Assembly (NCBI GenBank): GCA_947040595.1
Contig: CAMRBZ010000003.1
Span: 1-47,401, forward strand
Length of the DNA: 47,401 bases
Direction of reading: 5' to 3'
Source of the DNA: an uncultured Enterovibrio sp.
Lineage (GTDB): Bacteria > Pseudomonadota > Gammaproteobacteria > Enterobacterales > Vibrionaceae
Of the stretch, positions 3,649 to 42,108 are shown piece by piece. The notes below the pieces were generated by a model. It had not been told where the DNA came from and did no database searches. It saw only the letters and a program-made list of their open reading frames with translations. A program made the translations under genes and the position numbers. How positions within the stretch are numbered: position 1 is the first letter of the stretch; each line of letters opens with the position of its first letter.

Positions 3649-3664
3649 ATCATGAAAGAATAGA

Positions 3665-3791
3665 TATACCCAAGACACTTGAAGTTGCGTTTAGGCAGAA
3701 AATGAGTGAAGTCTTTGAGCATAGATGGACTCTGTGATTGGGCTGAACGAGCCTAGCCAACACCCACGCAGGTTGAAAGTTGACGGGTATA
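3665..3791 (-). repeat. ERIC-like repeat, full 127 bp
   Basis: It runs from TATACCCAAGACACTTGAAG to GACGGGTATA, with the palindromic core around GAGCATAGATGG. Here '-' means that TATACCCGTCGCC would be read on the minus strand. Confidence 0.85.
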
Positions 3792-8663: not shown

Positions 8664-8790
8664 TATATCCGTCGCCTTTGAAACTGCGTGGGTGTTGGCT
8701 ACATTCGTTCAGCCCAATCACATAGTCCATCTATGCTCAGGGGCTTCATTCGTTTGCCCCCTACACGCATCTTCAATTACGTTGGGTATA
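8664..8790 (+). repeat. ERIC-like repeat, full 127 bp
   Basis: It runs from TATATCCGTCGCCTTTGAAA to CAATTACGTTGGGTATA between gpsA and cysE. Confidence 0.88.
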
Positions 8791-19082: not shown

Positions 19083-19421
19083 TTAATTTCCTGTCGTCAT
19101 TGTTTGGACGTTTGATCGCGGTTGTAATGTTGTAACGCTTGCTGTTTTATTTGTCATTGATGCTGGATTATTGAGTGCTGTTGAGAAGTGACTGAATTTT
19201 TTGATGAGCTCTTTCATGAGCAATACATTTATTTGATTGGGATTTTTCCCCGTTTCTATCACTCTGTTTATGTGGCTAAGTTGCGCCCTAAGAGTAGGTT
19301 GCATTCTTTTGCTTGCCGTTGCAATAAAAGCTTCGCTCATTTCAATTCGAAGCGTTTCAAGTTCTTGTGGATCCTTTTCTGCTAGTGCTTTTAATTCGTC
19401 AAATGAAGGTAAGGTTTTCAT
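19083..19421 (-). CDS. DUF3135-like hypothetical protein
   Basis: The ATG at 19421 is chosen because AGGAG lies nine bases upstream; it gives a 112-aa protein starting MKTLPSFDELKALAEKDP. Longer in-frame starts would place that ribosome-binding site inside the gene. The N-terminal 80 residues (PSFDELKALAEKDP, LRAQLSHINRVIETGKNPN) resemble the DUF3135 family that I recall from Vibrio and relatives; this is from memory and not searched. The C-terminal 30 residues are Thr/Ser/Asn-rich and probably disordered. There is no signal peptide or membrane segment. Its role is unknown. It has its own terminator and lies downstream of fpr. Confidence 0.65.
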   Translation of the reverse strand: MKTLPSFDELKALAEKDPQELETLRIEMSEAFIATASKRMQPTLRAQLSHINRVIETGKNPNQINVLLMKELIKKFSHFSTALNNPASMTNKTASVTTLQPRSNVQTMTTGN

Positions 19422-19637
19422 GGCATAACTCCTGTTGTCGCTCATGACTTGGGTATGAATATATGCGCAAAACCGAGTGAAAATATTGGGAGGGTGATTC
19501 ATAACTGAGACTGTTAAGATTTTTGAAAAGAACTCATTGTCCACTTGTTGATTAAATCATTGATTTTAATTTAATTTAATTTGTTTTGTGAATGAGATTC
19601 TAATTTGTAAGAATTAAACTGAAAGGGAGGGGGAGGT

Positions 19638-23950: not shown

Positions 23951-24077
23951 TATACCTGTCGCCTTTGAAGCTGCATGGGTGTTGGCTACGTTCGTTCAGC
24001 CCAATCACATCGTCTCTCTATGCTCAGGGGCTTCACTCGCTTGGCGCCTACATGCATCTTCAAGTGTCTTGGGTATA
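23951..24077 (+). repeat. ERIC-like repeat, full 127 bp
   Basis: It runs from TATACCTGTCGCCTTTGAAG to CAAGTGTCTTGGGTATA, 39 bp from the 3' end of glpX on the opposite strand. Confidence 0.88.
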
Positions 24078-25261: not shown

Positions 25262-26767
25262 TCAGTATAATTCCCAGCCTTTGGCGCGTTCAATGGCTCG
25301 CAGCCAGCCTTGGTAGCGACGTTCTCGTTTACCATCATCAATACAGGGGAGAAAAACCCGCTCGATATGTATTTTATTTTCTATTTCATCAATGTCTTTC
25401 CAAAAACCAATGGCCAAGCCTGCAAGAGAGGCTGCGCCAAGGGCTGTGAGTTCTGTTATTTTAAGTCGTTGCACTTGAGTGTTTATAATATCTGATTGAA
25501 ATTGCATTAAAAAATTGTTTGAAACTGCGCCGCCATCGACTTTCAAAAAAGGAAGCTTAATGCCTGAATCGGCTTCCATTGCTTTAATCACATCCAAAGA
25601 TTGATAAGCAATGCTTTCTAAGGTTGCACGGATAATATGATTTGCATTTATGGATCGCGTCAATCCAAGAATGGCCCCTCTTGCATAGGGATCCCAATAA
25701 GGGGCACCTAAGCCTGAAAAGGCAGGGACGACATAAATACCTTCGGATGATTTCACTTGTGTGGCGTAGTATTCAGAATCTTTTGCATGACGTATTAAAC
25801 GCATTTCATCTCGAAGCCATTGAACAGACGCCCCCCCCATAAAAACAGACCCTTCAAGAGCAAAAGCCCAATCGCCATGACGATCGCATGCAAGCGTTGT
25901 GAGCAGGTTGTTTTTAGAGGTCACTTTCTTTTTACCTGTGTTCATGAGTAAAAAGCACCCTGTGCCGTATGTGTTTTTAGTTTGCCCCGGCTCGACACAC
26001 ATTTGTCCAAATAAAGCCGCTTGTTGATCTCCGACGATTCCCGCAATAGGTGTTCTGAGTTTGCTGTTACTGTCTATTTTTATTTCACCATAAACACCAG
26101 AAGAAGCTTTTACTTTGGGGAGCATGCTTAAGGGAATGTTGAGAATGTCGAGCAGCGTTTTGTCCCATTGACGGGTATTTATATTGAAGAGCATGGTGCG
26201 ACTGGCATTTGTAAAATCAGTGATGTGGACGTGCCCTTGAGTCATTTTCCAAATGAGCCAGGTTTCAACTGTGCCAAATAATAGATGCCCGTTTTGAGCC
26301 TGCTCTTTTGCGCCTTTTACGTTATCAAGGATCCATTTTATTTTGGTGCCAGAAAAATAGGGGTCGATAACCAAGCCTGTTTTTTCTTTAATTGATTCTT
26401 GATGACCCTCTTTTTTTAATTGTTCACAAATACCCGCTGTTCGGCGGCATTGCCACACAATGGCATTGTATATGGGTTTGCCTGTGTGTTTATTCCAAAC
26501 GATGGTGGTTTCACGTTGGTTTGCGATGCCGATTGCTGCAATTTTTTCAGCTGAAATGCCCGATTTTTTAAGTACATCCTGTAACGCGCTGTGTTGGGTG
26601 TTATAAATTTCGACAGGATCGTGTTCAACCCAACTTGGCTGAGGATAAATTTGAGTCAATTCGCGTTGAGAAATGGCGATAATTTTGGTGTTATGATCAA
26701 ATATAATCGCACGTGAGCTTGTAGTGCCTTGATCTAAAGCCACAATAAATTTTGATTCTATGCTCAA
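25262..26767 (-). CDS. glpK: Glycerol kinase GlpK
   Basis: GlpK phosphorylates glycerol to glycerol-3-phosphate. No ATG fits the N-terminus; a TTG at 26767 preceded by AAAGGGG gives 501 aa starting [18 protein letters not shown], against 502 in E. coli. Motifs include [12 protein letters not shown], the substrate-site NQRETT and WQCRRT, the effector-region [22 protein letters not shown] and [10 protein letters not shown]. The E. coli order is glpF-glpK-glpX, but no glpF is present here; upstream is an ERIC remnant and a foreign-looking methyltransferase gene. Confidence 0.93.
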
Positions 26768-26868: not shown

Positions 26869-26930
26869 CGAAACCGAAGAGATTTGAAGATGCCCCCAAG
26901 CTTCCTGCCGCTTCAAAAGCGACAGGTATA
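26869..26930 (-). repeat. ERIC-like repeat, internally deleted remnant
   Basis: A left-end-like GATTTGAAGATGC is joined to the right end CTTCAAAAGCGACAGGTATA, with most of the centre missing. Confidence 0.5.
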
Positions 26931-26992
26931 GGTGGCTGTGTGATTTTGTAGCGCTTTGAACCCCCCAATTCAGTATTGATAAGGACGTTTTA

Positions 26993-27520
26993 GTGAGCAG
27001 TACGATTGGCAATAAAATCGCAAGGGATGAATACCCTACACCGAGTCCCACTGTAAAGGCTCTATTAAGCAAGTTAACCTTAAAATCAAACGACACTTTT
27101 TTAGAGCCATGCAGAGGTTCTCGTAATATTTTTGACCGAATCGATTTACCCGAAGAACAAAAATTTTGGGCTGAAATCAATGAAGGTGTCGACTATTTAA
27201 CCGCTTCATTTTCTCCAAAAGATGTCATTATCACCAATCCACCTTTTAGCTTAACGATTGAGTTTTTGAGAAAATCCCTTTCTGAATTAGCCCCCAATGG
27301 CACGCTTGCTTATTTACAAAGAGTGAATTTTCTTGGCTCAAAATGCAGAGTTGATTTTTGGGCTGAAGTAGGATTCCCGAATAAGACGCCCGTCATTATT
27401 CCCAGACCTCGGTTTGTAAACGGCGGCTCTGATAGCTGTGAATACATGTGGATGATATGGGATAAAGGCAACCGATTTAGAGACCTTCCAAACGGAATAA
27501 GCCACATTATCAGTCAATGA
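26993..27520 (+). CDS. Orphan phage-type DNA adenine methyltransferase
   Basis: The 175-aa product resembles small phage-encoded N6-adenine methyltransferases. It has an N-terminal DEYPTPSPTVKALL, a SAM-site-like FLEPCRGSRNIFDRI, EINEGVDYL, the catalytic motif IV NPPFSL, YLQRVNFLGSK and a C-terminal CEYMWMIWDKG. The start is GTG at 26993 with AAGGA eight bases upstream. It stands alone between glpK and dcuA, with no restriction enzyme, integrase or phage genes nearby. In relatives I recall the SAM loop as having a second Gly (GSGNI-type); here it is Arg (GSRNI), which could weaken cofactor binding. Horizontal origin is inferred. Confidence 0.7.
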   Translation: MSSTIGNKIARDEYPTPSPTVKALLSKLTLKSNDTFLEPCRGSRNIFDRIDLPEEQKFWAEINEGVDYLTASFSPKDVIITNPPFSLTIEFLRKSLSELAPNGTLAYLQRVNFLGSKCRVDFWAEVGFPNKTPVIIPRPRFVNGGSDSCEYMWMIWDKGNRFRDLPNGISHIISQ

Positions 27521-27529
27521 TATTTACTT

Positions 27530-27592
27530 TATACCCAAGATATTTGGAGTTGCAGGTAGGCGAAAAGAACGAAAAGTGCTTGAGAATCCTAC
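27530..27592 (-). repeat. ERIC-like repeat, left half only
   Basis: It starts TATACCCAAGATATTTGGAG and fades after GTGCTTGAGAATCCTACA near the palindrome centre, just after the methyltransferase stop. Confidence 0.55.
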
Positions 27593-27754: not shown

Positions 27755-29062
27755 TTATAAAATAATTTCGCCCATGATAAAGCCGAAGCCTACAGCCGTG
27801 CAAATGGTGACCACTCCGGGCACAAAGAAGGGGTGATTAAAGACCAGATTACCGATTCGGGTTGAGCCTGTGTCATCCATTTCAACGGCGGCCAGCAGCG
27901 TTGGATAGGTTGGAAGTACAAATAAGGCGCTAACGGCGGCAAAAGAAGCAATCGCGGTTAATGGTGCAACACCAATTGCAAGGGCGGCAGGCATGAGTGC
28001 TACAGTGGTCGCACCTTGTGAATACAGCAGCATGGAAGCAAAAAAGAGCACCATTGCAAGCATCCAAGGGTGTTCTGAGAGTAACGTTCCTGCCACTTCT
28101 TTGATTTCGTTTACATGCCCGTTAACAAACGTGGTTCCAAGCCATGCAACCCCTAATACACACACGCATGCCGTCATACCAGAACGAAACGTGGGAGCAG
28201 AAGGGATTTTTGCAGCGTCAATGCCTGTTGTTAAAACGATCAAGGTTGCAGCGGCCAACATGAAAGTCATGATGGCTTCATTTCTGCCCAAAACTGGATT
28301 TTCAATCAGGCCAATGGAGTCTGAAATGGCAGCAGCGTAGCCAACCACAAGCACAATGGCGGCAATGAAAATAAAGGTGGCTTTTTTGGCTGTTGGGGCA
28401 ATTTCGCGCTTTGTTGTACCTTGTAATTTGATAAGACCTTTCGCAAGACGGCTTTGGTATTCAGGATCATCTTTTAGCTCTGCGCCAATAAAATTGGCAA
28501 CAAAGGCACCGACCATGCAAGCGGCAAAGGTGGTGGGGATACAAATAGAAAGTAAAGTGAGGTAATTGATACCAAAAGGATCAAGAATGCCAGAAAAAAA
28601 GACCACAGCCGCTGAAATAGGAGAGGCCGTAATGGCAATTTGAGACGCAACAACCGCGATAGAAAGCGGACGTGAAGGGCGGATCCCTTGCTCTTTAGCA
28701 ACTTCAGCAATCACGGGAAGTGTTGAAAATGCAGTGTGTCCTGTTCCTGCCATCAAGGTCATTAAATAGGTTACAATCGGGGCATAAAATGTGATTTGTT
28801 TTGGATTCCTACGAAGGAAATTTTCTGCTTTTTCAACCAACCAATCCATTCCTCCAGCCACTTGCATTGCTGATATGGCCGTGATAACGGACATGATAAT
28901 CAGTATGACATCGACAGGGATGTAACCTTGGCTTGTTGGCATACCTAAACACAAAGACAAAACAATGACACCCGCTCCGCCTGCTAAGCCTATCCCTATT
29001 CCACCAATGCGTGCACCTAGAAATATAAAGGTAAGTACAACGAACAATTCCATTGCGATCAT
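27755..29062 (-). CDS. dcuA: Anaerobic C4-dicarboxylate transporter DcuA
   Basis: DcuA exchanges aspartate or fumarate for succinate across the inner membrane. The 435-aa, highly hydrophobic product matches the Dcu family: FLGARIGGIGIGLAGG at the N-terminus, ISAMQVAGGMDWLV, TLPVIAEVAKEQGIRPSRPL, ASQIAITASPISAAVVF and ALFVLPTYPTLLAAVEMDDTG. The ATG at 29062 has AAGGAT seven bases upstream. It lies downstream of aspA, the standard pair feeding fumarate respiration; a terminator-like hairpin sits in the 53-bp gap. Confidence 0.95.
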   Translation of the reverse strand: MIAMELFVVLTFIFLGARIGGIGIGLAGGAGVIVLSLCLGMPTSQGYIPVDVILIIMSVITAISAMQVAGGMDWLVEKAENFLRRNPKQITFYAPIVTYLMTLMAGTGHTAFSTLPVIAEVAKEQGIRPSRPLSIAVVASQIAITASPISAAVVFFSGILDPFGINYLTLLSICIPTTFAACMVGAFVANFIGAELKDDPEYQSRLAKGLIKLQGTTKREIAPTAKKATFIFIAAIVLVVGYAAAISDSIGLIENPVLGRNEAIMTFMLAAATLIVLTTGIDAAKIPSAPTFRSGMTACVCVLGVAWLGTTFVNGHVNEIKEVAGTLLSEHPWMLAMVLFFASMLLYSQGATTVALMPAALAIGVAPLTAIASFAAVSALFVLPTYPTLLAAVEMDDTGSTRIGNLVFNHPFFVPGVVTICTAVGFGFIMGEIIL

Positions 29063-29079
29063 AAAAATATCCTTAAAAA

Positions 29080-29111
29080 TAATTTAAAAGGGTTTTGAAC
29101 AAACCCTTTTT
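29080..29111 (-). terminator. Hairpin between aspA and dcuA
   Basis: AAGGGTTT (29088-29095) pairs with AAACCCTT (29101-29108). On the minus strand it is followed by TTTAAATTATTTTT, so it may partly terminate aspA transcripts before dcuA. Confidence 0.65.
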
Positions 29112-29115
29112 TTGT

Positions 29116-30576
29116 TTAGTTGAAACGTTTTGCTTTATATTGAGGGTGCATTAAGTTTTCAATGGAGAAAATATCATCCAGCTCAACTTCTGTGAGTAAC
29201 CCACGCTCCAGCACGACCTCTCGTACGCTTTTTCCGGTTTGAGCGCAAATTTTACCGACAATATCGCCTTCATGGTGACCAATGTACGGATTAAGATACG
29301 TCACAATTCCAATTGAATTGAAAACGAAGTTTTCACAAACTTCTTTATTAACGGTGATCCCACTAACGCACTTGTCAGCAAGATTGATACAGGCATTTGA
29401 TAAAATATCAATCGACTCAAATAAAGCTTGTCCGATAACGGGCTCCATCACGTTGAGCTGAAGCTGTCCGGCTTCTGCTGCCAATGTGAGAGTGATGTCA
29501 TTGCCGATGACTTTAAAGCAAACTTGGTTAACCACTTCGGGAATAACGGGATTCACTTTTGCAGGCATGATAGAGGATCCGGCTTGCATTTCAGGGAGGT
29601 TTATTTCGTTAAAACCAGCACGCGGGCCAGAAGACAACAAACGTAAATCGTTACAAATTTTTGAAAGTTTTACCGCGAGGCGTTTCAGGGCACTGTGTAC
29701 CATGACATAAGCGCCACAATCGGATGTGGCTTCAATCAGATCTTCAGCAGGCGTGCAATTGAGGCCTGTGATATCCGCTAAGCGTTGAACTGCAAGTTGC
29801 TGATAACCAATAGCGGCATTAAGACCGGTTCCTATCGCTGTTGCACCTAGATTGACTTCTAACAGCAATTCAGCTGTGTATTTTAGATTTTTTGTTTCTT
29901 CTTTTAATAAGGTCGCAAATGCGTTGAATTCTTGTCCGACTGTCATGGGGACGGCATCTTGAAGCTGAGTGCGACCCATTTTCAGTATTTTGCTGTTTGC
30001 TTTTGCTTTTTCATGAAATTCATTTTGCAAATGCGTGATGGAGTGAGCCAGTTTTAAGATGCTGTTATAAACGGCGACACGAAAACCTGTTGGGTAAGCA
30101 CAGTTGGTTGATTGGCTTTTGTTTACATGGTCATTTGGGTTGATGATCTCATAGTGACCTTTTTTCTCTCCCATCAGTTCAAGAGCAAGGTTTGCAATGA
30201 CTTCGTTTGCATTCATGTTGACCGACGTTCCTGCACCGCCTTGATAAACATCAGAGGGAAATTGATCCATGCATTTTCCTGTTTCCAAAATAAGATCACA
30301 GGCTTGAATGATGTAATCAGCAACTTGAGAAGGGATCACACCCAATTCTTTGTTGGCCATTGCAGCCGCTTTTTTAGTGAAAATCATGCCACGAATGAAT
30401 TCTGGGATGTCTGAAATAGTGTTTTTAGAGATATTGAAGTTTTCAATTGCACGCAAGGTGTGGATCCCATAATAAGCATCAATGGGAACTTCACGTTGAC
30501 CCAGGAGGTCTTCTTCTGTGCGGGTTGTTAGATTCGGAGTGGATAATATTTGTTCTATATCAAGTAAATCAGACAT
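29116..30576 (-). CDS. aspA: Aspartate ammonia-lyase
   Basis: AspA deaminates aspartate to fumarate and ammonia. The product is 486 aa; compared with E. coli AspA (478 aa) it has about a dozen extra N-terminal residues before the conserved [13 protein letters not shown]. Catalytic blocks [33 protein letters not shown] and the flexible-loop signature [11 protein letters not shown] are intact. The ATG has GAAGGT upstream. One substitution from E. coli in a conserved stretch is [10 protein letters not shown], where E. coli has STNDAYPTGF. It forms an aspA-dcuA unit. Confidence 0.96.
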
Positions 30577-30945
30577 TGTATACCTTCATTTATTAAAAAA
30601 TTATTTTTAGTGAGGATGTTTTTATGAATGAAGCATTTTACACTCGAATCATTCTGAAAAAATGAACGGAAATGGAAGTTGAAGCAAAATGAACTTGCGG
30701 TATATCGCAAATAAAGAATTTTTTATCAAAATAAGCTCAAATTGTGTTAGGAGGCGATGAAGGGCTATTTTTAAAATTCGGCTGTCGACACAAAAATGTT
30801 ATTTCAAATTGATTTGAAAAAATGGATGTTGAAATAAAACAATCCACTTTGATTCATTTTTGTGGCGATCTTAGTTAGAGGGGATATCAAGAAAGTATAT
30901 ATTTAAGTAATTGAAAGTAAAAATATTATGTCTAATTAGTGACGG
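30577..30945. other. Gene-free region upstream of aspA
   Basis: These 369 AT-rich bp between eda and aspA hold no gene or ERIC copy. A small palindrome-like TTGCGGTATATCGCAA lies at 30695-30710. I looked for FNR and CRP sites, which control aspA-dcuA in E. coli, and saw no clear match. Confidence 0.45.
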
Positions 30946-31572
30946 TCATTTTTTTAAATTGACAGCCGCTTTAGCCCGTTTTCCAATCTCGTCCCAACGC
31001 CCTTCTTGAATCAAATTCTGTTCAACCATCCAGCTTCCTCCACAGGCAAGCACTCTTTCAATGGCAAGGTAGTCATTGATATTTTCCTGCGTGATGCCGC
31101 CTGTGGGAATAAATTTCACTTGGGTATAAGGTGCAAGAAGGGCTTTAAGCATATTGATGCCACCGGATGCCTCTGCGGGGAAAAATTTCAGTGTTGTGAG
31201 TCCCATTTCTAAAGCCAGCTCGACAGTCGTTGGGTTATTGACGCCAGGAATGATGTCTATGCCTATTTCTTGGCATGCAATCACAGTGTTAGGGTTAAAG
31301 CCGGGTGATACTATAAAGTTAGCTCCGGCCTTTTTGGCCATAATGGCCTGTTCGCGATTGAGAACCGTGCCAGCGCCTATCAGCATATCGGGGTGTGTTT
31401 CTCGCAGTAAACGAATGCCCTCGACGGCGGCATTTGATCGGAAAGTGATTTCAGCTATGTTTAAGTCATTTTCTATCAGTGTCTTAGCCAAAGGAATAAT
31501 ATCTTGTGCATGCTCGAGGGTAATGATTGGAATAATTTTAATGGCTGCGATCTGTTGGTCCAATGTGATCAT
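30946..31572 (-). CDS. eda: KDPG/KHG aldolase Eda
   Basis: Eda cleaves 2-keto-3-deoxy-6-phosphogluconate to pyruvate and glyceraldehyde-3-phosphate. The ATG at 31572 has AAGGA eight bases upstream and gives 208 aa; an in-frame ATG pair at 31596 has no ribosome-binding site. Class I aldolase motifs are IAEITFRS (catalytic Glu), GAGTVLN, ANFIVSPGFN, the Schiff-base Lys in LKFFPAEASGG and IPTGGIT. No edd or uronate genes are adjacent, so the source of KDPG here is unknown. Confidence 0.92.
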   Translation of the reverse strand: MITLDQQIAAIKIIPIITLEHAQDIIPLAKTLIENDLNIAEITFRSNAAVEGIRLLRETHPDMLIGAGTVLNREQAIMAKKAGANFIVSPGFNPNTVIACQEIGIDIIPGVNNPTTVELALEMGLTTLKFFPAEASGGINMLKALLAPYTQVKFIPTGGITQENINDYLAIERVLACGGSWMVEQNLIQEGRWDEIGKRAKAAVNLKK

Positions 31573-31790
31573 TGAAAGTGTCCTTTTGGTCATCATATTT
31601 AAATAATTGACGAATTTCTATTCAAAATGCACTTCTGGGATTGTGAGATTGCGAGAGAGGAATGAACGCCTTTTTGTTTAATGGAGCAAGGGTGTATTTT
31701 TGCATGAATATTCCTTTAAGATTTATGACTATTTGTTAACAATTTAAAACGATTTTTTGGAATGCGTTAAGGCACAGATCATATCCTCAA

Positions 31791-31904
31791 TATACCTCTC
31801 ACCTTTGAAGTTGCTGCGCTCTCAAAGTCTAATCACATAGAACACCTATGTTCAGTGGTTTTGCGTTTTGAACGCCTAGCTGTAACCTCCAATATCTTGG
31901 GTAC
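31791..31904 (+). repeat. ERIC-like repeat, degenerate
   Basis: It starts TATACCTCTCACCTTTGAAG and ends ATCTTGGGTACA. Its centre, CACATAGAACACCTATGTTCAG, is closest to the subtype at 23853. Confidence 0.6.
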
Positions 31905-31979
31905 ATCGAAAAATTACGCCGTGTTCTCCGTGATGTTTTTTGTGCAATATTGGAATAAGGACCTCATGGGATGGGTATC

Positions 31980-32022
31980 ACTTGCCTGCCGCCTGGCTGC
32001 ATTTTTAAGTCTCTTGGGTATA
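31980..32022 (+). repeat. ERIC-like right-end fragment
   Basis: ACTTGCCTGCCGCCTGGCTG leads to AAGTCTCTTGGGTATA, the right end of plus-oriented copies. Confidence 0.45.
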
Positions 32023-32261
32023 TTGCTTTTCAAATGAAGATTAATTAAAAACAATATTATCTTCTTATTTGAATCGAAATTTAATGTTCATTTGTTTTTT
32101 TTTTGTTCGTTTGAGTTGTAAATACTTATTTGAAAGGTGCGAGCAAAGTCATGCGCCGTTAGAATAGAGCTTTTAGGAACAAGTGAGGTTTCAGGTCTTA
32201 TTTGTGATACCTTAGAGAAAACTGCGCAAAGCGCTTGGATAATTTTAAAAAGGTGATTTTG

Positions 32262-32504
32262 ATGTCGATAGAAATTCTAGAAAAGCTTGAAACTAAAGTT
32301 CAGTTGGCGGTGGATACTATTTCTCTTTTACAACTGGAAATTGAAGAGTTAAAAGAAAAGAATGACACTTTGGGGCTTGAGTCAGATGCATTTCGTGAAA
32401 ATCGCGATACATTAGATAAAGAAAATGAGCGTTTGCGTCTTGATCATGAAGCGTGGCAAGAGCGTATTCGTAACTTGTTGGGTAAAATTGAAGAAATAGA
32501 ATAA
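32262..32504 (+). CDS. zapB: Cell division protein ZapB
   Basis: ZapB is a small coiled-coil protein that links the FtsZ ring, through ZapA, to MatP and the chromosome. The ATG at 32262 with AAAGGTGA upstream gives 80 aa (81 in E. coli), starting MSIEILEKLETKVQLAVDTI. Almost the whole length is heptad-patterned, with conserved LQLEIEELKEKN and WQERIRNLLGK near the C-terminus. An upstream in-frame ATG at 32235 is poorly placed. Confidence 0.94.
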   Translation: MSIEILEKLETKVQLAVDTISLLQLEIEELKEKNDTLGLESDAFRENRDTLDKENERLRLDHEAWQERIRNLLGKIEEIE

Positions 32505-38207: not shown

Positions 38208-40397
38208 TCAGCTCATATCTTGGGGCTCTATATCGAGGGACCAGCGCACTTTATTTGAAAGAGGAAGAAGACGGATTGCGAGCAATGCTTGAGAAAGTCT
38301 TTGGAGTAAGATTTGTCGAGTCGGCGCTTGAAAAATCAGCTGCCATCGAAAGCGTCCAGCACGGCGATGCAAAGGCGCCGGGAGAGGCCCCATAAGAGCG
38401 CATTGGGTTTCTATTGGCGTCGCCTCTAATGCGGTACGGGTTTGCTGAAGAAATTGCTCAACCTGCTCACTTTGATTTCCTTCTGCGCGAAAAAGAGCAA
38501 AAAAACTAAAAGGCGGTAATTGTGTTTCCTTCCTTTCTTTCAAGGCGGCACGCGCAAAATGACAGTAATCTTGACTGATAAGGGATTGTAATAAGGCATT
38601 GTCTGGGTGATGCGTTTGAAGCAAAACATAACCGGGTTTATAAGCGCGTCCGGCACGCCCTGCCACTTGCACGAGCAACTGAGCTAATCGTTCTGGAGCG
38701 CGAAAATCATTGCAAAAAAGAGCGCTGTCAACGTCGATGAGCGCGACGAGAGTCACATCGGGGAAATGATGCCCTTTGGCCAGCATTTGAGTGCCAATGA
38801 GTATTTGATATTCCTTGTTGTGAATGGCGTTTAAATAATTTTCCAGAGCACCTTTTCTGCGTGTGTTGTCCCTGTCTATTCGGATTGTTTTGTATTCAGG
38901 AAATAATGTCGTTAATTGCGTTTCAAGCTGTTCTGTTCCGACCCCGACCGTGATGATTTGTGTGGATCCACAACTTTCACATTGAGGCATAATCGCGCGA
39001 TGCGTTCCGCAGTGATGACAACGAAGTTGGTTTTCTTTTTGGTGCAAGGTGAAATAGGCGTCGCAGCGTTTACAGGCGCACAGCCAACCGCATTCATGGC
39101 ACATTAACGCCGGAGCATACCCACGGCGATTTAAAAACAGCATGACTTGATTGCCTTGAGAAAGATGCTTGCGCATTTCTGCAATAAGTGGAGCTGACAA
39201 ACCAGCCTCAAGATACAACCCCCGGACATCCAATAAACTTTGCTTGGCTTTGAGTGCATTTCCCGCTCGTACTGTCAAAAGAAGATGATGATATTTTCCT
39301 GAAAGGGCATTGTTTAAGCTTTCAAGTGAGGGGGTTGCAGAGCCTAGAAGGACCGGGATTTTTTCTTCGTGTGCCCGCATGACGGCGAGATCTCGCGCAT
39401 GATAGCGAAAGCCATCTTGTTGCTTATATGAGGCGTCATGTTCTTCGTCAAGAATAATGATCCCAAGAGATTTGCAAGGAGAAAAAAGCGCCGATCTTGT
39501 CCCTATGATAATCCCCGCTTCATTTTCTTTTGCGCCAAGCCAAGCATTTAAACGCTCGGTGTCATTGAGCGCGGAATGCAACACAACAATCGGCACTTGA
39601 AAACGACGCTTAAATCGATCGATGGTTTGAGGGGTGAGCCCAATTTCAGGAACCAAAATCAGCGCTTGTTTTCCTTTTGAAAGTACAGGTTCAAGGGCGT
39701 TGAGGTAAATTTCTGTTTTACCCGATCCCGTGACGCCATCAATGAGGTAGCAAGCAAATTCAGAATTTGAATTGATTGTGGCGACAGCGATGGCTTGCTC
39801 TTGATTGAGAGAGGGCTTTTCTTCAATAACGGCGTAACGGGACAGCCAATCGACAGGGGGGCTGTCTTTTATTGGTTCAATCCAGCCTTTTTCTTGTAGA
39901 TTCTTAATGACGGGTGATTTGACTTCGTTTTCTATTAAATCACTCTGAAGCATGCCTCCATTTCTTAAAAGATTGAGAAGCTGTGCCTGCTTGACGGCTT
40001 TGGGCAAGCAAGTTAATTGTTTTTTGCCATCACAAGACAAGGCCCAGGCGATTTCTTGTTCTCGTTTGGCTTTTTTTCCTTTTCGTAAATGCACGGGCAA
40101 AACGGTTGAAAGTGTTTCCCCTAGCGGGCACTGATAATAGCGGCTTGCCCAGACTAACACTTTATAAAGAGACGCCGGCCACAAAGGGGCATCATCTAAA
40201 ACTTCCATGATGGGCTTGAGTTGCTCAAATGGAAAAGAAGAGGTCTCTGAAAGGGCTGTGACGATGCCAATTTTATTTTGTTTACCAAAAGGCACGCGCA
40301 CGCGGGCACCAATGGACGGAATTTGATGACCAATGCGGTAATCAAACGTTTTATGAAGAGGTACAGGTAAGGCTACTTGCGCGATAATCGGCTTCAT
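38208..40397 (-). CDS. priA: Primosomal protein N' (replication restart helicase PriA)
   Basis: PriA recognises stalled forks and reloads DnaB. The ATG at 40397 (MKPIIAQVALPVPLHKTFDY) gives 729 aa, like E. coli (732); a TTG eleven codons upstream adds non-conserved residues. The 3'-DNA-binding domain is followed by Walker A GVTGSGKTE, DEEHDASYKQQ, FLNRRGYAPAL, eight zinc-binding Cys in CHECGWLCACKRC and CHHCGTHRAIMPQCESCG, and the helicase motifs LIGTQMLAKGHHFPD and QVAGRAGRA. It is divergent from rpmE, as in E. coli. Confidence 0.96.
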   Translation of the reverse strand: MKPIIAQVALPVPLHKTFDYRIGHQIPSIGARVRVPFGKQNKIGIVTALSETSSFPFEQLKPIMEVLDDAPLWPASLYKVLVWASRYYQCPLGETLSTVLPVHLRKGKKAKREQEIAWALSCDGKKQLTCLPKAVKQAQLLNLLRNGGMLQSDLIENEVKSPVIKNLQEKGWIEPIKDSPPVDWLSRYAVIEEKPSLNQEQAIAVATINSNSEFACYLIDGVTGSGKTEIYLNALEPVLSKGKQALILVPEIGLTPQTIDRFKRRFQVPIVVLHSALNDTERLNAWLGAKENEAGIIIGTRSALFSPCKSLGIIILDEEHDASYKQQDGFRYHARDLAVMRAHEEKIPVLLGSATPSLESLNNALSGKYHHLLLTVRAGNALKAKQSLLDVRGLYLEAGLSAPLIAEMRKHLSQGNQVMLFLNRRGYAPALMCHECGWLCACKRCDAYFTLHQKENQLRCHHCGTHRAIMPQCESCGSTQIITVGVGTEQLETQLTTLFPEYKTIRIDRDNTRRKGALENYLNAIHNKEYQILIGTQMLAKGHHFPDVTLVALIDVDSALFCNDFRAPERLAQLLVQVAGRAGRAYKPGYVLLQTHHPDNALLQSLISQDYCHFARAALKERKETQLPPFSFFALFRAEGNQSEQVEQFLQQTRTALEATPIETQCALMGPLPAPLHRRAGRFRWQLIFQAPTRQILLQRLSQALLAIRLLPLSNKVRWSLDIEPQDMS

Positions 40398-40530
40398 GAG
40401 GGGCGAAATTCGATAAGTTGAATGGTTCAATCGTCAGTGTACCTGTGCGTTCTCGTGGGAACCACTTGAAGCGCTCACTTTGAGTCTGATTAACCTGTTT
40501 TATAATGAATCGAACAAAAAAGTTGCGATT

Positions 40531-40642
40531 TTTTCCCTGAATGATTAAAATTTCGCGCTTTAACTATTTTTGTTAACGACGTGTGGTGCTCGGCTAAGGG
40601 CTGAGAAAGCGACACGGCCTTTTTAATACAGGGGTTATCCTT
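40531..40642 (+). promoter_or_regulatory. Structured leader of rpmE
   Basis: The 5' region contains a foldable stretch from CGTGTGGTGCTCGG to GCGACACG ending about 25 bp before the rpmE ribosome-binding region. Ribosomal protein L31 leaders that self-regulate are known in gamma-proteobacteria; membership is inferred from position and fold only. Confidence 0.35.
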
Positions 40643-41311: not shown

Positions 41312-41406
41312 ACGTGAATGAAGTGGAGAGATATTTCTTATTTTTGAAAGGAAAAAAGGAAAGAGCCGAGATAAGATTCCGTGTTCAGTTCGGTATGAAA
41401 ATCAAC

Positions 41407-41533
41407 TATACCCGTCGCCTTTGACGCTGCATGGGTGTTGGCTACGCAGGTTCAGCTCAATCACAGAGCCCATCTATGCTCAGGGGCTTCACTCGCTTGG
41501 CGCTGGCGCGCATCTTCAAGTACCTTGGGTAGA
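41407..41533 (+). repeat. ERIC-like repeat, full 127 bp
   Basis: It runs from TATACCCGTCGCCTTTGACG to CAAGTACCTTGGGTAGA, 47 bp before the unrecognised gene at 41581. Confidence 0.87.
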
Positions 41534-41580
41534 TTTCGGAAAAGAAACATGATTTAATCATGAGTTCAAGGAGTATGAAT

Positions 41581-42108
41581 ATGTACAATAAAAAAGGAAA
41601 TTCGTTAAACAAAAAACTCCTCAGCATTGATTTACTTTTTGCAATCGAGCGATTATTGCCAGGTAAACGCTGTATTTCTCTTTTCCGAAGTAATCGAAAA
41701 TTTGTTCCGCTTACAACCCTCACATTAATGCACTGCGACTCTGCTTCTGCATTGCAATTCGAACTATACAAACACTGCATAAATTACGCCGCATTTTCAC
41801 AAGGGCGGATCCTTGCAGATGATTACGCCATTGACGGACATGATGAGCAAATTCAACCCGCGACAATGATCATCGCCGCTTTTGTCCGTGGAGCATATTG
41901 GTGGGTTGAACATTACCATGAAATTTACAAAGAAAGCTGGAGCAATTCTCAAAAAGAAAAATGGCTAAGAGATTTTAGACTTCTCGTACAAATCATTATC
42001 GGTATAGAGCATTGCAGAAAAGCAGATTGGCTGATCCAAAATCACAGCGTAATAAAAGCCTTAACCTTCAATAGCAACATTTTTCCTTTTCTTCAAAATT
42101 ATGATTAA
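41581..42108 (+). CDS. Hypothetical protein, family not recognised
   Basis: The ATG at 41581 is chosen because AAGGAG lies seven bases upstream; ATGs at 41560 and 41575 are badly spaced. The 175-aa product starts MYNKKGNSLNKKLLSIDLLF. It is mostly helical by composition, rich in Trp, His and Tyr (RGAYWWVEHYHEIY, SQKEKWLRDFRLLVQIIIGI), and has no signal peptide or clear membrane helix. Cys residues are scattered with no metal-binding spacing. It is bracketed by ERIC copies upstream and the tRNA-Asn gene downstream (convergent). This is where integrated elements often leave cargo, so foreign origin is possible, but no integrase is present. I do not recognise a function. Confidence 0.65.
   Translation: MYNKKGNSLNKKLLSIDLLFAIERLLPGKRCISLFRSNRKFVPLTTLTLMHCDSASALQFELYKHCINYAAFSQGRILADDYAIDGHDEQIQPATMIIAAFVRGAYWWVEHYHEIYKESWSNSQKEKWLRDFRLLVQIIIGIEHCRKADWLIQNHSVIKALTFNSNIFPFLQNYD

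Follow-up and report, generated by a model that had tools for sequence, protein, structure and literature searches.

A phage-type DNA methyltransferase alone on an Enterovibrio chromosome, probably kept as a working gene since before two sister species split

Between glpK and dcuA, an uncultured Enterovibrio carries a lone gene that is likely to have come from a phage, to encode a DNA methyltransferase (most probably N6-adenine-specific), to have been captured before the split from a sister species and to have stayed functional in the chromosome ever since. The window (the whole stretch of DNA analysed, 47,401 nucleotides) holds no other recognizable piece of a phage among the sequences compared below. 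The established part of this explanation consists of an intact frame, membership of a phage family, a class I fold, presence at the same locus in the sister species and purifying selection. The features concerned are as follows.

25262..26767, minus strand: glpK (FGGY kinase), backbone gene left of the junction
26873..26932, minus strand: ERIC-like remnant that lacks its middle, left of the methyltransferase (pieces 26873-26893 and 26906-26932)
26981..26985, plus strand: AAGGA, putative ribosome-binding site seven bases 5' of the GTG, identical in the sister species
26993..27520, plus strand: phage-type DNA methyltransferase ORF, intact, GTG start, TGA stop, 175 aa
27530..27562, minus strand: remnant of one end of an ERIC-like element, right of the methyltransferase
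27755-29062, minus strand: dcuA (DcuA_DcuB)
27755..31596, minus strand: dcuA, aspA and eda (KDPG aldolase), which together with the methyltransferase separate glpK from zapB, an arrangement that G016, of the same genus, does not have
32253..32501, plus strand: backbone gene right of the block, which we take to be zapB (tblastn of the G016 ORF, 71% over 83 aa)

This is a fairly clean example of a phage methyltransferase observed once separated from its phage. A prophage copy and a chromosomal one, the latter at the same locus as here, coexist in one sister genome, purifying selection is measurable on the chromosomal pair, and a methylome of either species could directly reveal the target of this phage methyltransferase family.

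Identity and predicted fold

The ORF is real and more than a chance reading frame. It matches the profile phrog_799 ('DNA methyltransferase') over residues 3-161 of 175 (E 3.5e-52), and the protein search of phage genomes suggested by the first-pass annotation returned 615 phage records at E <= 0.01 (tblastn), with Vibrio phages at the top, namely ZF14_PE001 (67.8% identity, 99% of the length covered), PV94 (67.2%) and K139 with others (63.8%). That annotation had read the protein as a methyltransferase of phage type with an NPPF motif, a reading borne out by the position of NPPF at residues 82-85, the phrog_799 match and the P2-like phage relatives. On sequence, it is another member of phrog_799 and is filed there, not as an M.TaqI-type enzyme. 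No Pfam family scored above its cut-off. Two candidate assignments were dropped, namely the M.EcoRI family (EcoRI_methylase, PF13651; 13.8 bits vs a cut-off of 26.4) and the MADS defence methyltransferase mad2 (11 of 720 bits with NCBIfam; 19.8 bits over residues 75-160 with PADLOC). A simple scan of the upstream DNA found no promoter-like site on the plus strand and one on the minus strand, vs 2.5 expected by chance. Among the literature matches listed, no title concerned the function of this family, and PMC7919010 deals with the methyltransferase of another phage.

A SAM-binding motif I region (residues 36-46, FLEPCRGSRNI, with EPC at 38-40 and EPCRGSRNI at 38-46) precedes the NPPF within a predicted class I fold. 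The best of five AlphaFold models, built from 20 aligned relatives, had a pLDDT of 80.1 (64.9-74.3 in the other four) and a pTM of 0.81, with residues 1-13 and 138-147 poorly predicted. Its top structural match was M.TaqI (Foldseek E 4.4e-07), whose catalytic domain, represented by residues 21-223 only, aligned with Z 13.3 and rmsd 2.8 over 147 residues (VIA-align). The model thus says that the fold is class I, of the N6-adenine kind. Matches within one Z unit of M.TaqI, which count as ties, include RNA methyltransferases such as the putative PH1948 (Z 12.7) and human METTL5 (12.3), so the fold alone is no proof of a DNA substrate; by inference from the NPPF motif and the phage relatives the substrate would be DNA, and the motif suggests adenine N6 as the methylated position. 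Sequence searches of solved structures gave no acceptable relative (best E 0.079 and 0.043). At 175 aa in all, the protein includes no C-terminal target-recognition domain of the M.TaqI kind.

The chromosomal locus and its counterpart in a sister species

As the first-pass annotation had placed it, the methyltransferase lies between glpK, ending at about 26767, and dcuA, both on the minus strand. In the same genus, G016 has the order glpX-glpK-zapB-rraA, and its aspA-dcuA pair lies over 400 kb off on the same contig. In the window the methyltransferase, dcuA, aspA and eda come between glpK and zapB, which makes the methyltransferase the leftmost gene of a relocated block, present here and in the sister and not in G016. 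We searched 16 of the 17 same-genus relatives for the glpK/dcuA adjacency, leaving out G006 (87% complete). Both genes were found in 14 genomes; they adjoin in the sister (G002) alone, lie apart on one contig in two (G004, G016) and fall on different draft contigs in 11.

Nothing else at the locus is recognizably phage-derived. A tblastn search of the flanking stretches, roughly 0.3 and 0.24 kb long, with 19 ZF14_PE001 proteins gave nothing better than E 0.22, and in the window as a whole the methyltransferase is the only one of the 19 with a match. Besides it, the window has 36 tested ORFs of at least 150 aa (an antisense ORF at 31154-31606 lay outside the test), 35 of which match ordinary cellular families in Pfam, the exception, 41560-42108, having no match; no restriction nuclease or phage gene appeared among them, and PriA (38208-40430) matches only the generic ResIII helicase domain. 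The earlier claim of no restriction partner or other phage gene is therefore upheld for these ORFs and the ZF14_PE001 proteins, and the methyltransferase is solitary, with no cognate restriction gene nearby. Elsewhere in the genome we found one MethyltransfD12 (Dam-type) protein, three strong and two weak N6_Mtase (HsdM-type) matches and no match to N6_N4_Mtase. Replacement of a lost Dam was rejected, given the Dam-type protein. Separately, the window contains an L31-Gammaproteobacteria ribosomal leader (RF03157) at 40580-40635.

The gene was also said to be flanked by ERIC remnants, and two short ones do lie on either side. Their matches to a 127-bp repeat of the window are weak (E 0.22 for 26873-26893, 2.9e-6 for 26906-26932 and 3.5e-5 for 27530-27562). 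The repeat itself agrees with the ERIC-PCR primers at 14 and 15 of 22 positions, no better than shuffled sequences, but elements resembling it turn up in 4807 of 5426 E. coli genomes. Of two such elements fetched, one carries ERIC1R at 22/22 and ERIC2 at 21/22, the other 17 and 18 (primer sequences from PMC3696847). Kinship of the repeat with ERIC is well supported by these comparisons. Copies are dense across the window (for example 3662-3791, 8664-8790, 23951-24077 and 41406-41531) and the genome, with at least 50 matches genome-wide after scoring of 40 of 869 first-look candidates; further ERIC-like pieces lie at 31791-31814 and 31978-32022, near the right end of the relocated block.

The sister assembly (uncultured Enterovibrio, CAMRDW010000011.1) has the methyltransferase at the same locus with 97% amino acid identity. 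The two genes differ at 27 of 528 bases, 21 synonymous and six nonsynonymous, giving dS 0.216, dN 0.015 and dN/dS 0.068; under neutrality (ratio 1) so few nonsynonymous changes have a binomial probability of 6e-10. This estimate comes from one species pair, the only two species with the gene here, and 27 changes treated by a simple counting method. The ratio indicates that the protein has been kept functional, and a dS within the range of its neighbours is consistent with transmission as part of the chromosome after the two species parted. For the 23 neighbouring ORFs compared (24 of 37 window ORFs gave values in all, the sister contig covering part of the window), dS spans 0.082-0.290 and dN/dS has a median of 0.065 and a range of 0.009-0.463. 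One neighbour, the DUF3135 ORF at 19083-19544, stands far above the others with a dN/dS of 0.46. Identity between the two species is 94.9% in the methyltransferase and 85.3% and 83.8% in its flanks.

With the frame intact in both species, these values do not support the suggestion that the gene is decaying, and, with retention at one locus under purifying selection, they make its description as a domesticated, solitary, phage-type enzyme probably right. If the phage was lost on two occasions, part of the constraint could have acted while the gene was still in a prophage.

Phage relatives and the SAM-binding loop

At the loci examined, relatives are mostly borne by phages. Other P2-like phage genes accompany the methyltransferase at 20 of 23 loci (L009-L031) and in 10 of 16 regions fetched around relatives, two of which (L208 and L209) coincide with L009 and L012. 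K139 and PV94 have the homologue in their early region, amid small hypothetical genes, between a CII-like gene and the replication gene; in ZF14_PE001 the setting is similar, a retron-ORFb-like gene standing in place of the CII-like one. A second copy in the sister genome shares 91% identity with the window protein and follows the tail module of a partial P2-like prophage (contig C12 of G002; L008, 336-8525) that encodes a tape measure protein, tail proteins and a 1064-aa protein in the tail-fibre position; this copy lies about 170 bases from a contig end. It is joined by the chromosomal pair with support 100/98 in a tree of 24 rows chosen from the 76 relatives described below. Between it and the window, DNA similarity covers 26994-27478; the flanks of the two copies do not match, so that no flank of phage origin can be seen at the window locus. 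The window gene belongs to the P2-like phage family of methyltransferases and is not part of such a phage.

In the window's genome we found no P2-like terminase, an absence that is weak in a draft (G012 and G035 were positive; G002, with its partial prophage, G016 and G076 negative), and no match to the sister's gpD-like tail protein in a search that had no positive control. The closest relative found outside the genus, at 82%, is in Alteromonadales alter-6D02 (L009), with no ZF14-like phage genes in the surrounding 16-20 kb and a match to MkoC (Mokosh type II) 1.1 kb away. Ankyrin, DUF2971 and PD-(D/E)XK genes also lie near the MkoC match (L009, 1092-14531), a setting that resembles a defence island.

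Matches are scattered, occurring in 18 of 329 genomes across the bacterial family (one of them weak) and in 5 of 100 in the nearest set, the window's own genome included in both counts. Fifteen of the 17 same-genus relatives have none; the others are the sister, at the window locus, and G012, with a 71% copy in a P2-like prophage. As far as the search went, the gene was not found at the window locus in the rest of the genus, so the conservation at this site across the genus that would have told against the first-pass reading was not encountered.

The loop deserves separate treatment, since the first-pass annotation had called it altered, with Arg where Gly would be expected. We collapsed identical translated matches from 99 loci to 76 relatives, excluding the window itself and including the sister copies. 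Residue 41 is R in 31, Y in 31, F in 6, I in 4, K in 3 and V in 1, so Arg41 is ordinary; residue 44 is G in 60, D in 9, R in 4, and K, E and L in 1 each, so the expectation of Gly holds at position 44, where the window has Arg. P39, C40, N82, P83, P84, F85, Q109, R110 and D147 are invariant in 76/76, and the window protein has them all. Its five close relatives all have a basic residue 44 (four Arg, one Lys), namely the two sister copies (L007, L008), two viral contigs (L014 and L015, the loop of the latter being one residue longer) and alter-6D02, and together with the window they are set apart by a supported branch (96/99 in the 24-row tree). A row for L005, empty and from the wrong strand, was dropped from the alignment of close relatives. 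Arg is thus standard at 41 and, within the close clade, a basic residue is at 44, but not at 44 in the family at large, and the alteration is not peculiar to the window copy. The simplest reading of the alignment and tree is that a basic residue 44 arose in phages before the chromosomal copy and would be no mark of decay.

Competing explanations and comparison with known systems

The favoured reading is a resident, active m6A methyltransferase, whose role would be to protect DNA or to regulate genes. SAM would be bound at the FLEPC region, and the adenine flipped out and then methylated with the NPPF motif. The compact catalytic domain leaves no room for a target-recognition domain, and the target may be short or loosely defined. 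The benefit would lie in shielding DNA from restriction or in a methylation mark used by the host; protection is slightly favoured, because a related copy, that of alter-6D02, stands by itself near a defence gene of the Mokosh type. A prophage like the sister's, where the tail module is followed by the 91% identical copy, was probably the source of the ancestral gene. A more specific version, which we think rather unlikely in full, is that a phage methyltransferase of minimal size, consisting of the one domain and carrying a basic SAM-loop residue, has turned into a resident enzyme of relaxed sequence specificity, serving self-protection or epigenetic marking, and has outlived its prophage in the chromosome of two sister species.

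Regulation of the host, for instance of the divergent glpK through local or global methylation, is a minority possibility to which we give a little more credence than to that specific version. Purifying selection in the absence of a phage or restriction partner speaks for it, as does a start divergent from glpK; the genome already has a Dam-type protein, however, and the ratio against the sister prophage copy is equally low (0.057-0.071), so constraint of this kind is not specific to a role in the host. That most relatives at the loci examined are phage-borne, and that the sister prophage keeps its copy after a tail module, would also suit an anti-restriction gene still serving a small, unrecognized mobile element at the locus. 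We consider this improbable, as the flanks contain no convincing phage protein, the site is the same in both species and the adjacent dcuA, aspA and eda are genes of metabolism. Least probable is a prophage relic in early decay that survives by chance without function. It would account for the lack of any other phage gene alongside, the ERIC remnants and rearrangement around the gene and the Arg at the usual Gly44, but the frame intact in two species and a dN/dS of 0.068 vs a neutral 1 largely refute it, the flanks have diverged about three times as much as the gene, and every residue found in 76/76 relatives is present.

Set beside known systems, the protein is closest to K139 orf8, PV94 gp12 and ZF14_PE001 gene 33 (phrog_799), with which it shares 64-68% identity over 99% of its length and the NPPF and EPC motifs; it differs from them in standing alone on a chromosome, in being 5-31 residues shorter and in having Arg44. 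M.TaqI and its kind form the gamma class of N6-adenine methyltransferases. The likeness to M.TaqI and other gamma-class enzymes is in the catalytic-domain fold, whereas identity to M.TaqI is 18% and the window protein is too short for its C-terminal domain. To M.EcoRI there is a weak, below-cut-off match of 18 residues around NPPF. M.EcoGII is a non-specific phage-type adenine methyltransferase; with that kind of enzyme the window gene has in common a phage origin and the absence of a restriction partner.
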